Shown one piece after another: positions 3,652-7,932 of a stretch of DNA of 64,000 bases. The stretch's first letter is position 1. Each line of letters begins with the position of its first letter. The notes under the pieces are model-generated. The model had not been told where the DNA came from, searched no databases, and saw nothing but the letters and a program-made list of their open reading frames with translations. This DNA is from Bulleidia sp. zg-1006 (lineage in GTDB: Bacteria > Bacillota_I > Bacilli_A > Erysipelotrichales > Erysipelotrichaceae), in assembly GCF_016812035.1 (NCBI RefSeq), contig NZ_CP069178.1, positions 124,001 to 188,000 of the forward strand, read 5' to 3'. The position numbers and the translations under genes were made by a program.

Positions 3652-3674
3652 ACTAGGTAAGGTATACCTAATAA
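3650..3674 (+). promoter_or_regulatory. DtxR/TroR-type operator
   Basis: Imperfect palindrome: half sites TTACTAGGTA and TACCTAATAA (9 of 10 positions symmetric) separated by 5 bp. Positions 3653-3671 match the classical DtxR/IdeR consensus (TTAGGTTAGGCTAACCTAA) at 14 of 19 bases. It lies between the -10 element and the Shine-Dalgarno of the first operon gene. The operon encodes its own DtxR-family protein at 7282, so autoregulation by metal is the natural reading. Binding is inferred. Confidence 0.75.
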
Positions 3675-3686
3675 GGAGAATTTACT

Positions 3687-4616
3687 ATGAAGAAAATTAT
3701 TGCGTCAATGCTAAGTATATTGATGCTGGCGGCTTGTGGTCAGCCAAGTACAAGTACCACACAACCTACTAATGAAAAGAAATTGAAGGTAACGGTTACG
3801 ACTTCTTTCTTACAGGATATGGTCACTCAGTTAGCGAAGGATTACACCGATGTTAAGTTGGTTATTCCAGCGGGTGAAGATCCTCATACCTACGAAGCAA
3901 AACCGGAAGATTATAGCAAGATTAAGGATGCGGATTTAGTTTTATATCATGGTCTTCACTTTGAAGGAAAGATGGTTGAATTGTTAGAAAACGCCAAAGG
4001 ACATGCGGTTACGAAAAACTTTGATAAGAAATCACTATTAACCATGGAAGAAGATGGTGTTAAGATTACTGACCCACACTTTTGGTTTGATGTTGACTTA
4101 TACAAGAAAGCAACTACCGAAGCGGCGAATAGCTTGAAAGAAAAATTGCCAAAATATAAGGACAAGATTGAAGAAAACCTGCAAGCTTATCTTAAGAAGT
4201 TAGATGATTTAAAGGTATATTGCCAATCACAAATTAACATGATTCCTAAGAAATCACGTATTTTAATTACTCCTCATGATGCGTTTAGTTATTTTTCCAG
4301 ACAGTATGGTATTGCAGTGGAAGCGCCACAAGGTGTTAGCACGGATGCGGAATTAAGTACGAAAGATATGGCTAAGACAGCTCAATTTATTGTTGACCAT
4401 CAAATTAAGGCCATCTTTGCGGAATCCACAACCGATCCGGCACGTATGGAAAAATTAAAAGAATCTTGTGCCGCAAAGGGCTTTAAGGTTAAAGTCGTAA
4501 AAGGTGAAGGGCAAGAATTATTCAGTGACTCTTTAGCACCTAAGGGACAAAAGGGTGATACCTATATCGACATGGTTAAGATGAATGTGGATTTAATGGT
4601 ATCGAATTTGAAATAG
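3687..4616 (+). CDS. Metal-binding lipoprotein of Tro/Znu-type ABC transporter
   Basis: Cluster A-I substrate-binding protein that captures Zn, Mn or Fe(II) outside the membrane. The signal peptide ends in lipobox LAAC (lipidated Cys17). Ligand positions by family alignment are His67 (EDPHTYE), His131 (DPHFWFD), His197 (TPHDAF) and Asp291 (GDTYIDM). Three His plus Asp is the TroA/ZnuA arrangement; strictly Mn-selective PsaA-like proteins have Glu at the third position. The His-rich loop typical of dedicated ZnuA is absent. First gene of a five-gene operon under a DtxR box. Metal preference cannot be settled from sequence. Confidence 0.93.
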   Translation: MKKIIASMLSILMLAACGQPSTSTTQPTNEKKLKVTVTTSFLQDMVTQLAKDYTDVKLVIPAGEDPHTYEAKPEDYSKIKDADLVLYHGLHFEGKMVELLENAKGHAVTKNFDKKSLLTMEEDGVKITDPHFWFDVDLYKKATTEAANSLKEKLPKYKDKIEENLQAYLKKLDDLKVYCQSQINMIPKKSRILITPHDAFSYFSRQYGIAVEAPQGVSTDAELSTKDMAKTAQFIVDHQIKAIFAESTTDPARMEKLKESCAAKGFKVKVVKGEGQELFSDSLAPKGQKGDTYIDMVKMNVDLMVSNLK

Positions 4617-4630
4617 AAAAGGAAGTGCGT

Positions 4631-5347
4631 ATGAGTGTTATTCATGTGGAGGATTTGACCGTTTCTTATGGCTATCAACCGGTATTATGGGATATTGATG
4701 TGGATATTGAAGAAGCTAGTTTGACCGCTATTGTAGGACCGAATGGAGCTGGCAAGTCGACTTTATTGAAAGCTATTTTAGGTTTTGTGAAATCTTTGTC
4801 AGGCGTGGTAACACTCTATGACTTACCTTTGAAAGATGTGTTAAATCGTTTGGCCTATGTCCCCCAACAAGCTTCTGTGAATTGGGATTTTCCAATTACG
4901 GTTTTTGATGTTGTATTGATGGGACGTTATTCTTCTTTGGGTTGGTTTCATCGACCAAACAAAGAAGAAAAAAAGCTGGCCATGGATGCTTTAGAAGAAA
5001 TGAAAATTAGTGATTTGAAAGATCGTCAGATTTCGGAATTGTCAGGTGGTCAGAAACAACGTGTGTTTATTGCTCGTGCTTTGTGTCAAAATGCCCAGCT
5101 AATTTTAATGGATGAGCCATTGGCTGGAGTGGATAAAACAAGCGAAAAAATCATTATGGATAAAATGAAGGCTCTTCAAAAAGAAGGAAGAACGATAGTT
5201 TGTGTGCATCATGATTTACAGACTTTAAGAGATTATTTTGACCATGTAGTTCTTATCAATCGAAACATTATTGCTTATGGACCAATAAAAGACATATTAA
5301 CCCAAGAAAATTTAGATATTACTTTCCAAGAGGGACCGGTATGTTAG
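4631..5347 (+). CDS. Metal ABC transporter ATP-binding protein
   Basis: Energises the neighbouring metal permeases (TroB/ZnuC/MntB family). Walker A GPNGAGKST (about 35-43), Q-loop YVPQQ, signature LSGGQKQR, Walker B LILMDEP and the H-loop (VHHD) are all intact. The start at ATG 4631 is preferred because AAGGA at 4619-4623 then has 7-nt spacing; GTG 4625 sits almost on the RBS. The 3' end overlaps the first permease by 7 nt. Confidence 0.93.
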   Translation: MSVIHVEDLTVSYGYQPVLWDIDVDIEEASLTAIVGPNGAGKSTLLKAILGFVKSLSGVVTLYDLPLKDVLNRLAYVPQQASVNWDFPITVFDVVLMGRYSSLGWFHRPNKEEKKLAMDALEEMKISDLKDRQISELSGGQKQRVFIARALCQNAQLILMDEPLAGVDKTSEKIIMDKMKALQKEGRTIVCVHHDLQTLRDYFDHVVLINRNIIAYGPIKDILTQENLDITFQEGPVC

Positions 5348-6207
5348 CGGTATTAACATCGTATGACTTTCTAGTGGTTGCCTTCGGGACAACAGTGTTA
5401 GCCATGGTTAGTGCTGTGGTGGGTTGTTTTAGTGTCTACAAAGGACAAAGTCTAGTTGGTGATGCGATAGGGCATGCGACTTTTCCGGGGATTGTATTGA
5501 CATTTATGCTTTTCCAAACTAGAAATCCACTTTTATTAACGATTGGAGCTGCGCTATCGGCCGGGCTTGCTTATGAAGTGATACAGGCTTTCGTGCGTCA
5601 TAGTAAAATTCAATTTGATGCGGCTTTAGCAATTGTATTAAGTGGCTTCTTTGGCTTGGGCTTGGTTTTAAAAAGCTATATTCAGGGTCATCCAAGTTAT
5701 GTGAATGCTTCGCAAGCAGGGTTGAAAAATTATATTTTTGGTTTAGCGGCATTCATGATGAAAAAGGATGTTGTGTTGATTTTTATTGTGGCGGGCGTTT
5801 GTTCATTGATTTTATTTTTATTTTATAAAGAATTGGTTTTAAGTGTTTTTGATGCATCGTATGGCGAAAGTATTGGCATTTCTTCTAAATTGGTGGATCG
5901 AATTCTTTTGATTATGACGATTGCGTTGATTGCGGTTGGTATTAAAAGTGTGGGAGCTATTCTGATTTCTTCTTTTTTAATTATTCCATGTATCTGCGCT
6001 CATCAGCATAGTCATCGTTTAAAGAATGTGTTGATGATTGCGTCTGGCACGGCAGGCTTTAGTGCTTTCTTAGGAACGTTCTTGAGTTCGTTATATCGTG
6101 GTCTATCGACCGGTCCCACCATTATTTTAGTGATGGGCACATTAACTTTTCTTTCAATGATTTTTGGTAAGAATAGTGCCTTGCAAAAAAGGAGGTCACT
6201 TGTATGA
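5341..6207 (+). CDS. Metal ABC transporter permease 1 (TroC/ZnuB family)
   Basis: Integral membrane subunit of 288 residues, usual for the family, with about eight predicted hydrophobic segments. Family motifs include GQSLVGDAIGHATFPGI (about 35-52) and KSVGAILISSFLIIP (about 203). It overlaps the ATPase gene (7 nt) and the second permease (ATGA, 4 nt), which indicates tight coupling. It probably heterodimerises with permease 2, as TroC with TroD. Confidence 0.92.
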   Translation: MLAVLTSYDFLVVAFGTTVLAMVSAVVGCFSVYKGQSLVGDAIGHATFPGIVLTFMLFQTRNPLLLTIGAALSAGLAYEVIQAFVRHSKIQFDAALAIVLSGFFGLGLVLKSYIQGHPSYVNASQAGLKNYIFGLAAFMMKKDVVLIFIVAGVCSLILFLFYKELVLSVFDASYGESIGISSKLVDRILLIMTIALIAVGIKSVGAILISSFLIIPCICAHQHSHRLKNVLMIASGTAGFSAFLGTFLSSLYRGLSTGPTIILVMGTLTFLSMIFGKNSALQKRRSLV

Positions 6208-7331
6208 TGGAAGTTCTATTGGTCATTTTAATGACCTCTTTAGCTTGTGCCATTCTAGGACCTTTCCTTGTTTTACAGAAATTATCGATGACGGCTGATG
6301 CACTTTCTCATTCTGTTTTATTGGGAATTGTAGTGGCCTTTATGTATGTGCAAGATTTGAATTCACCTTGGTTGTTTATTGGGGCCGCTTTGTTTGGACT
6401 ATTGACTGTTTATGTGGTTGAGACGGTAGCCGATAAATATCAAGTGAAAAAGGATGATGCCCTAGGAATTATTTTTCCGATGTTTTTTTCATTGGCGGTG
6501 ATTTTAATCAGTCGTTTTTTCCGCAATGCGCACTTGGATGTGGACATTGTGTTAATGGGGAATCCGTTATTTGCACCATTTATTCGTTTGTTTGATTTAC
6601 CGAGATCCTTTGTGGTGATGTTGATACTATTTATCTTAAACTTAGCTTTTGTGCTATTGTTCTACCAACCTTTAAAGATAACTAGCTTTGATCCAAAATA
6701 CGCTCGCTTAAAAGGCATTAAGACGGGGTATTTGTTCTACGGCTTAATGACTTTGACTTCTTTAACAACCGTAACAGCTTTTGATAGTGTCGGAGCGATT
6801 TTGGTGATTTCTTTCTTGGTAGCACCAGCAGCTTGTGCTTGTCTTGTCACAAAGGATTTGAAATACACACTTATTGTAAGCTTATTCTTTGCGATGAGCA
6901 GTTCTATTTTAGGTTTTGCTCTTGGTAATTTATGGAATGTGTCAATTGCCGGTATGTGTAGTTTTATTGGTCTTTTACAGTGTATTCTAGTGATTCTTTT
7001 TCATAAGAATGGTTGGTTGAGTGAAAAGATAAAAAGATCCAAACAAAGAAAGGAAGTGTATCGTGATTTATTCTTAATGCATGTCTATCATCATCCGGGA
7101 AATCAAGAAGAAATTGGATTAAACACGATACAAAATCATCTGAATTGGTCATCGAAACAAACAAAAAAAATCATTCAAGATCTTTTGAAATTCGACTGGA
7201 TTGTAGAAAATGAAACACTTAATGTCTATGAACTTAGACCAAAAGGCTTAAAGCGTGTTACACTTTTAATGGAGAATTTATATGACCAACAATCGAGAAG
7301 ATTATTTAAAAACTATATTTCGTCTTCATGA
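6204..7331 (+). CDS. Metal ABC permease 2 with C-terminal winged-helix-like extension
   Basis: Residues 1-272 form a normal TroD/ZnuB-type permease (KLSMTADALSHSVLLGI near 26; DSVGAILVISFLVAP near 194). Residues about 275-375 are an extra soluble part, basic at first (KIKRSKQRKEVYRD), with the helix pattern and hydrophobic spacing of a DtxR-type winged helix (QNHLNWSSKQTKKIIQDLLK, then FDWIV, then LRPKGLKR). GGAGG precedes the ATG by 8 nt. The extension's end overlaps the following DtxR-family gene by 50 nt in another frame. The best known parallel is chlamydial YtgCR, a permease-repressor fusion that is cleaved. The domain call is by eye. Confidence 0.85.
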   Translation: MMEVLLVILMTSLACAILGPFLVLQKLSMTADALSHSVLLGIVVAFMYVQDLNSPWLFIGAALFGLLTVYVVETVADKYQVKKDDALGIIFPMFFSLAVILISRFFRNAHLDVDIVLMGNPLFAPFIRLFDLPRSFVVMLILFILNLAFVLLFYQPLKITSFDPKYARLKGIKTGYLFYGLMTLTSLTTVTAFDSVGAILVISFLVAPAACACLVTKDLKYTLIVSLFFAMSSSILGFALGNLWNVSIAGMCSFIGLLQCILVILFHKNGWLSEKIKRSKQRKEVYRDLFLMHVYHHPGNQEEIGLNTIQNHLNWSSKQTKKIIQDLLKFDWIVENETLNVYELRPKGLKRVTLLMENLYDQQSRRLFKNYISSS

Positions 7332-7932
7332 ATCAGGCGAAAAAGCAACGAATAAAAAGATTTCGATGCATTTAAACATTGCACCGGCTTCTGTTTCAGA
7401 AATGTTGAAGAAGTTGTTATCAGAGGGCTTTATTATCTTCAATGGTACAGAAATTTGTTTAACTGAAGAGGGAGTAAAAGAAAGTAAGCGAGTGTTAAGT
7501 TGCCACCGTTTATGGGAAACTTTCCTTTTAGAAAAGTTACATTACAACTGGCAAGATGTGCATGAACAAGCGGATTTATTGGAACATGTTACCAATGATG
7601 AATTAAAGAAGCATCTTAATGTGTATTTGAATTATCCAAAGAATTGTCCACATGGTTCAATCATCTATGAAAACATGGATGGACCGGTGGAAGAAAGCTT
7701 ATTCTTAGCGGATTTGGAAGTTGGTCAAAAGGCGATGATTATTAAAGTAGATGATGATGAGAAACAATTTTTAGCTTACTTGGATCGCATTGGTTTAGAA
7801 CTTCATGATGAGCTGGAAATATTAGAGAGAGATTCTTTTGATGATTCTTTATTGGTGCTTTGTAAGGGAAAGAAGATTTCAATTTCCATAAAAGCCATGC
7901 GCCATATTTACGTTAAAGTTTTAGATAAGTAA
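7282..7932 (+). CDS. DtxR-family metal-dependent repressor (TroR/MntR/SirR type)
   Basis: Three-domain iron/manganese-sensing regulator of 216 residues: N-terminal winged helix (1-70), dimerisation/metal domain (about 71-140) and C-terminal FeoA-like SH3 domain (about 150-216). Metal ligands by alignment with MntR are Asp7, His75, Asp98, Glu101 and His102; MntR Glu11 corresponds to Lys10, so the primary site resembles the DtxR/SirR branch more than MntR. It is the last gene of the metal operon and starts 50 nt inside the upstream permease gene, with GGAGA spaced for ATG 7282. The likely target is the operator at 3650-3674. Confidence 0.92.
   Translation: MTNNREDYLKTIFRLHESGEKATNKKISMHLNIAPASVSEMLKKLLSEGFIIFNGTEICLTEEGVKESKRVLSCHRLWETFLLEKLHYNWQDVHEQADLLEHVTNDELKKHLNVYLNYPKNCPHGSIIYENMDGPVEESLFLADLEVGQKAMIIKVDDDEKQFLAYLDRIGLELHDELEILERDSFDDSLLVLCKGKKISISIKAMRHIYVKVLDK

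Follow-up and report, generated by a model that had tools for sequence, protein, structure and literature searches.

In Treponema pallidum and Treponema denticola, the troABCDR genes encode two permeases of different lengths, TroC (298 and 304 aa, respectively) and TroD (367 and 366 aa), together with a separate repressor, TroR (PMC2628430). Orthologous permease-repressor fusions have been reported from 11 phyla, according to Thompson et al. 2012 as cited in PMC5599777. In the MetNI and ModABC systems, fused cytoplasmic regulatory domains throttle the ABC importer by trans-inhibition (PMC10710835). We found no paper in the open-licence literature that assigns a function to a short permease extension of the kind described here, which is carried by the second permease of a metal importer encoded in a 64,000-nt stretch of Bulleidia sp. 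zg-1006 DNA (hereafter the window).

Five genes of the window, all on the forward strand, form one metal importer operon, in which a metal-binding lipoprotein resembling the TroA/PsaA/MntA substrate-binding proteins (3687-4616), an ABC ATPase subunit (4625-5347), two PF00950 permeases, the second longer than the first, and a DtxR/MntR-type repressor are clustered. The binding protein and the ATPase were assigned from their open reading frames (ORFs), the former having an annotated counterpart in Deinococcus operons and the latter matching annotated operons in gene order. Permease 1 (288 aa; 5341-6207) was assigned from its ORF, Pfam match and alignment, and permease 2 (375 aa; 6204-7331) from its ORF, Pfam match and hydropathy; the importer, in which permease 2 is the second membrane subunit, is an ordinary bacterial ABC importer of the Tro/Mnt type for manganese/iron/zinc. 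The repressor (216 aa; 7282-7932) contains wHTH (PF01325), metal-binding/dimerisation (PF02742) and FeoA (PF04023) domains. As read from the sequence, a probable DtxR-type operator, TAGGTAAGGTATACCTAATAA, lies before the binding-protein gene on the same strand (3654-3674), with a palindromic core, AGGTATACCT, at 3660-3669 that occurs as a single exact copy within the window. The AAGGTATACCTAATAAGGAG sequence upstream of the binding-protein gene is conserved in Bulleidia extructa (locus L005), the closest available relative (83% identity) and the sole match in a genome-contig scan.

The PF00950 match of permease 2 spans residues 1-257 (E 1.7e-44) and hydropathy puts the end of its last hydrophobic segment at residue 268 of 375, with no hydrophobic stretch past residue 269, so that 107 residues extend beyond the last membrane helix, in agreement with the approximately 100 given in the preliminary description. 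PDB matches to permease 2 end at residue 259, such that none of the solved structures that were found spans the extension, and the one relative detected in viral contigs covers query residues 10-269 only. The extension begins with a basic juxtamembrane linker including a conserved G270 (residues 269-280; 7008-7043, from the alignment). When searched alone, it gave no Pfam or NCBIfam model above cut-off, the IZUMO, Arc and thymopoietin matches below cut-off being rejected as noise, and phmmer against the PDB likewise returned noise only. PF01325 gave no match in the window's extension and did not rank with the commonest families when 41 members were scanned.

Profile comparisons were more informative. 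With a profile built from 41-43 homologous extensions, hhalign gave a probability of 95.5% (E 1.4e-8) for the wHTH of the DtxR proteins encoded next to the permeases; the remainder of DtxR scored 0.2%, and none of 40 column-shuffled controls exceeded 4%. The same profile found the neighbouring DtxR protein in a search of its own genome (E 5.6e-5) and, in the PDB, MarR, SarA, MntR and TubR chains at E values of about 0.001-0.01. Structure prediction and fold search, both proposed in the preliminary description, were run on residues 280-362: the best AlphaFold2 model (single sequence, pLDDT only 58.6) places helices at 281-295, 302-313 and 317-328, strands at 333-336 and 341-344, and a last helix at 346-361, an H-H-H-E-E-H order that corresponds to a winged-helix topology. 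Modelling a 108-residue form of the extension together with one relative gave a poor result (pLDDT 43.9). For the better model, Foldseek ranked SloR, a DtxR-family manganese regulator, first (E 0.11, short of significance by itself); DtxR, MntR, ScaR and MarR chains came next, and no single match reached significance. VIA-align Z values were all below 5 and were not used as evidence for a specific family. Taken together, the profiles and the predicted topology, with three helices followed by a beta-hairpin wing as in the wHTH superfamily, support a DtxR/MarR-type winged-helix fold for residues ~281-361 (7044-7286), so that the DtxR-type winged helix proposed for this extension is borne out. 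Residues 362-375 fall outside the domain.

These last residues relate to the way in which the permease and repressor genes overlap. As previously noted, the stand-alone DtxR gene begins within the end of the extension in another frame: its ATG is at 7282, giving a 50-nt overlap. In Bulleidia extructa, with an overlap of 8 nt, the permease ends after residue 361 at a TAA codon that corresponds to CAA in the window; this stop is contained in the sibling's ATGACTAAC and is missing from the window's ATGACCAAC. The second codon of the repressor is ACC in the window and ACT in the sibling, a synonymous difference that adds 14 residues to the permease of the window. Since this difference removes the permease stop found in the sibling, the 50-nt overlap is a recent consequence of it, whichever of ACT and ACC came first. 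The overlap is specific to the window's lineage. Considering that the closest relative lacks residues 362-375, these were rejected as part of the domain and are best described as a lineage-specific read-through tail (7287-7331, including the stop codon), which overlaps the first codons of DtxR in another frame. In 20 relatives the distance from permease to repressor ranged from an overlap to a 98-nt gap; two Deinococcus rows of this survey were computed from wrongly set starts, and for D. peraridilitoris the overlap is 14 nt in the published annotation.

Several families of the class contain extended homologues, which also occur on Deinococcus plasmids and one Paracoccus plasmid. In 392 genomes the extension profile was matched over its full length (28 with E < 1e-17), in every case by the C-terminus of a permease-size ORF (358-384 aa). 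Many other phylum-wide matches, mostly to ORFs of 120-160 aa and covering only about positions 35-88 of the profile, look like MarR-type regulators that share the fold and were not counted as members of the family. A PF02742 protein was present in 33/41 genomes, so that coexistence of the extended permease with a stand-alone DtxR protein, which the preliminary description had singled out, is real but is the normal arrangement, found in troABCDR as well; the survey of fused and split forms that it had called for thus identifies extended permease plus separate repressor as the usual form. The remaining 8/41 genomes had no PF02742 protein and kept the extended permease. The tail on the permease is a widespread, previously reported arrangement, and the window's protein is an ordinary member of its family. 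Among the loci without a PF02742 DtxR protein, L065, L068, L070, L071, L072, L073 and L074 belong to genomes of about 0.7-1.1 Mb, and the HxxxH...E residues of the extension are eroded in several of them. Separately, two PF02742 matches with identical scores lie in 125-aa ORFs about 10 kb apart outside the window (G000:C1:222392-222568 and 232103-232279), possibly reflecting a recent duplication.

The extension is not restricted to permease 2. In 27 aligned relatives (among loci L015-L023 and L053-L075), permease 1 bears an extension that is homologous to that of permease 2 (hhalign 98.4%, and 97.5-97.8% without the shared juxtamembrane part). Seven of these are full length, and about 20 are without helices 2 and 3, retaining the linker/first helix and the wing. 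The clade of the window has a permease 1 without an extension, which on the midpoint-rooted tree is compatible with either loss or original absence.

Across 20 genomes, the mean pairwise identity of the recognition helix of the extension was 0.16, compared with 0.26 for the whole extension domain, whereas in the DtxR proteins of the same genomes it was 0.55, compared with 0.42 for the whole domain; the difference in column scores between helix and domain gave P 0.20 for the extension, not significant alone, and P 0.025 for DtxR. Conservation of the recognition helix among homologues, which the preliminary description had itself made a test of its reading, is therefore lost. The PF02742 metal-binding/dimerisation domain, present in the 7282-7932 protein, was absent from the extension; the extension is one winged helix of ~80 residues rather than a full metal-dependent repressor that carries DtxR metal ligands. 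Because the recognition helix is unconserved, the dimerisation/metal domain is missing and permease 1 copies often have no HTH, a DNA-binding role for the extension is unlikely on this sequence evidence, and the earlier suggestion of a membrane-tethered DNA-binding module is not sustained. The third helix carries a net positive charge (0 to +4), so nonspecific contact with DNA is possible.

Since the tail is widespread and its recognition surface unconserved, steadying or regulating the importer is likelier than DNA binding. We consider it somewhat probable that the winged helix of permease 2, derived from or sharing its fold with DtxR/MarR-type wHTH domains, has ceased to be maintained for recognising specific DNA sequences and stabilises or throttles the importer. 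The extension would lie on the cytoplasmic side, under the membrane domain and beside the ATPases, with a homologous or reduced permease 1 copy opposite it in many relatives. There it could act in the assembly or stability of the importer, or throttle transport when cytoplasmic metal is sufficient, and it may have a sensing role. Transcription would be controlled separately by the adjacent DtxR protein, probably via the predicted operator at 3654-3674. What we observed in support of this proposal is the fold family, the conservation of the extension and the purifying selection on it, the occurrence of homologous extensions on permease 1 and the lack of conservation in the recognition helix. 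Further points in its favour are that full-length profile matches are confined to permease C-termini, that the eight genomes without a PF02742 match keep the extension, and that MetNI and ModABC set a precedent for throttling. Counted against the proposal were the location of the MetNI/ModABC domain on the ATPase, the unextended permease 1 of the window, the positive third helix and the weaker selection on the extension. Compared with the sibling Bulleidia extructa, dN/dS was ~0.24 for the extension, 0.05 for the membrane part and 0.065 for DtxR, showing that the extension is under purifying selection, weaker than that on the rest of the protein.

A specific form of this explanation is that H293, H297, E303 and sometimes H312 form a metal site through which the domain detects cytoplasmic metal and turns the importer off by trans-inhibition. 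The conserved residues of the extension are G270, H293, H297, E303, W315 and G348, with an HxxxH...E...W signature: H293 is found in 40/43 sequences, H297 in 38/43, E303 in 32/43 and all three together in 30/43. In the model, the first helix has H293 and H297 close to its end, in an i,i+4 arrangement. A histidine pair at i,i+4 is a common metal-binding spacing, and the substrate of the importer is a divalent metal. However, the Deinococcus rows are incomplete (Y293, no E303), the residues are eroded in the tiny genomes of L068, L070 and L071, they could be structural, packing on W315, and the AlphaFold2 model is too weak for measuring distances, so that we regard this metal site as doubtful. 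A bolder version, which we hold to be unlikely, is that a transcription-factor domain fused to permeases has become a metal-sensing brake, in which paired winged helices bind metal via HxxxH...E and stop transport, one copy often being HTH-less and none being present on the window's permease 1. Such a paired arrangement cannot apply to the species of the window, because its permease 1 has no extension.

We also considered that the domain might act as in chlamydial YtgCR, binding DNA while tethered or after proteolytic release and co-regulating the operon together with the stand-alone DtxR protein. Its closeness to DtxR in profile and Foldseek comparisons, its positively charged third helix and its retention in the eight relatives without a PF02742 DtxR protein are all consistent with such a function, and chlamydial YtgR is released from its permease and binds its own operator (PMC5599777, PMC7755916). 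Nevertheless, the recognition helix is unconserved (16% against 55% identity), the metal-binding/dimerisation domain that is the seat of YtgR's conserved metal ligands (PMC5599777) is missing, the homologous permease 1 extension is often HTH-less and a dedicated repressor is normally present, making this explanation quite improbable. Equally improbable is that the extension is a decaying, functionless remnant of an ancient permease-repressor fusion: while many lineages, that of the window included, have a reduced permease 1 extension or none, selection is weaker on the extension than on the rest, and the permease 2 extension is cut short in L064, its dN/dS of 0.24 is well below 1, H293, W315 and G348 are conserved in 40-43/43 sequences across phyla and even genomes of 0.7-0.9 Mb retain the domain.

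If the extension is a regulatory domain, as the preferred reading allows, a former DNA-binding fold would provide post-translational control of manganese/iron uptake, and long permeases of this kind are found in many metal importers, including, by length, Treponema TroD. Mutational tests could be aimed directly at the HxxxH...E...W signature and at the degenerate partner on permease 1.

Compared with known systems, the locus of the window has the gene order of troABCDR (binding protein, ATPase, permease, longer permease and DtxR-type repressor) with matching subunit lengths (PMC2628430); the extra TroD residues would, from their length and position, be homologous to the window's extension, and the 50-nt permease/repressor overlap is a feature of the window's lineage. 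With YtgCR, the characterised fusion, it has in common a single chain in which a DtxR-type winged helix comes after a PF00950-type permease, but the YtgR part is a full repressor, has the DtxR metal ligands, is carried by a TroC-like permease and is cleaved off (PMC5599777, PMC7755916), whereas the window has a winged helix only, on the second permease, with the repressor separate. The N-terminal wHTH of the DtxR/MntR/SloR/ScaR family is matched by the extension in profile and predicted topology; unlike these regulators, the extension has no Fe_dep_repr_C domain, its recognition helix is unconserved and it is joined to a membrane protein. MetNI and ModABC offer a precedent for domains that throttle an importer, but theirs sits on the ATPase and has another fold, whereas that of the window is on the permease and its effect is proposed by analogy.
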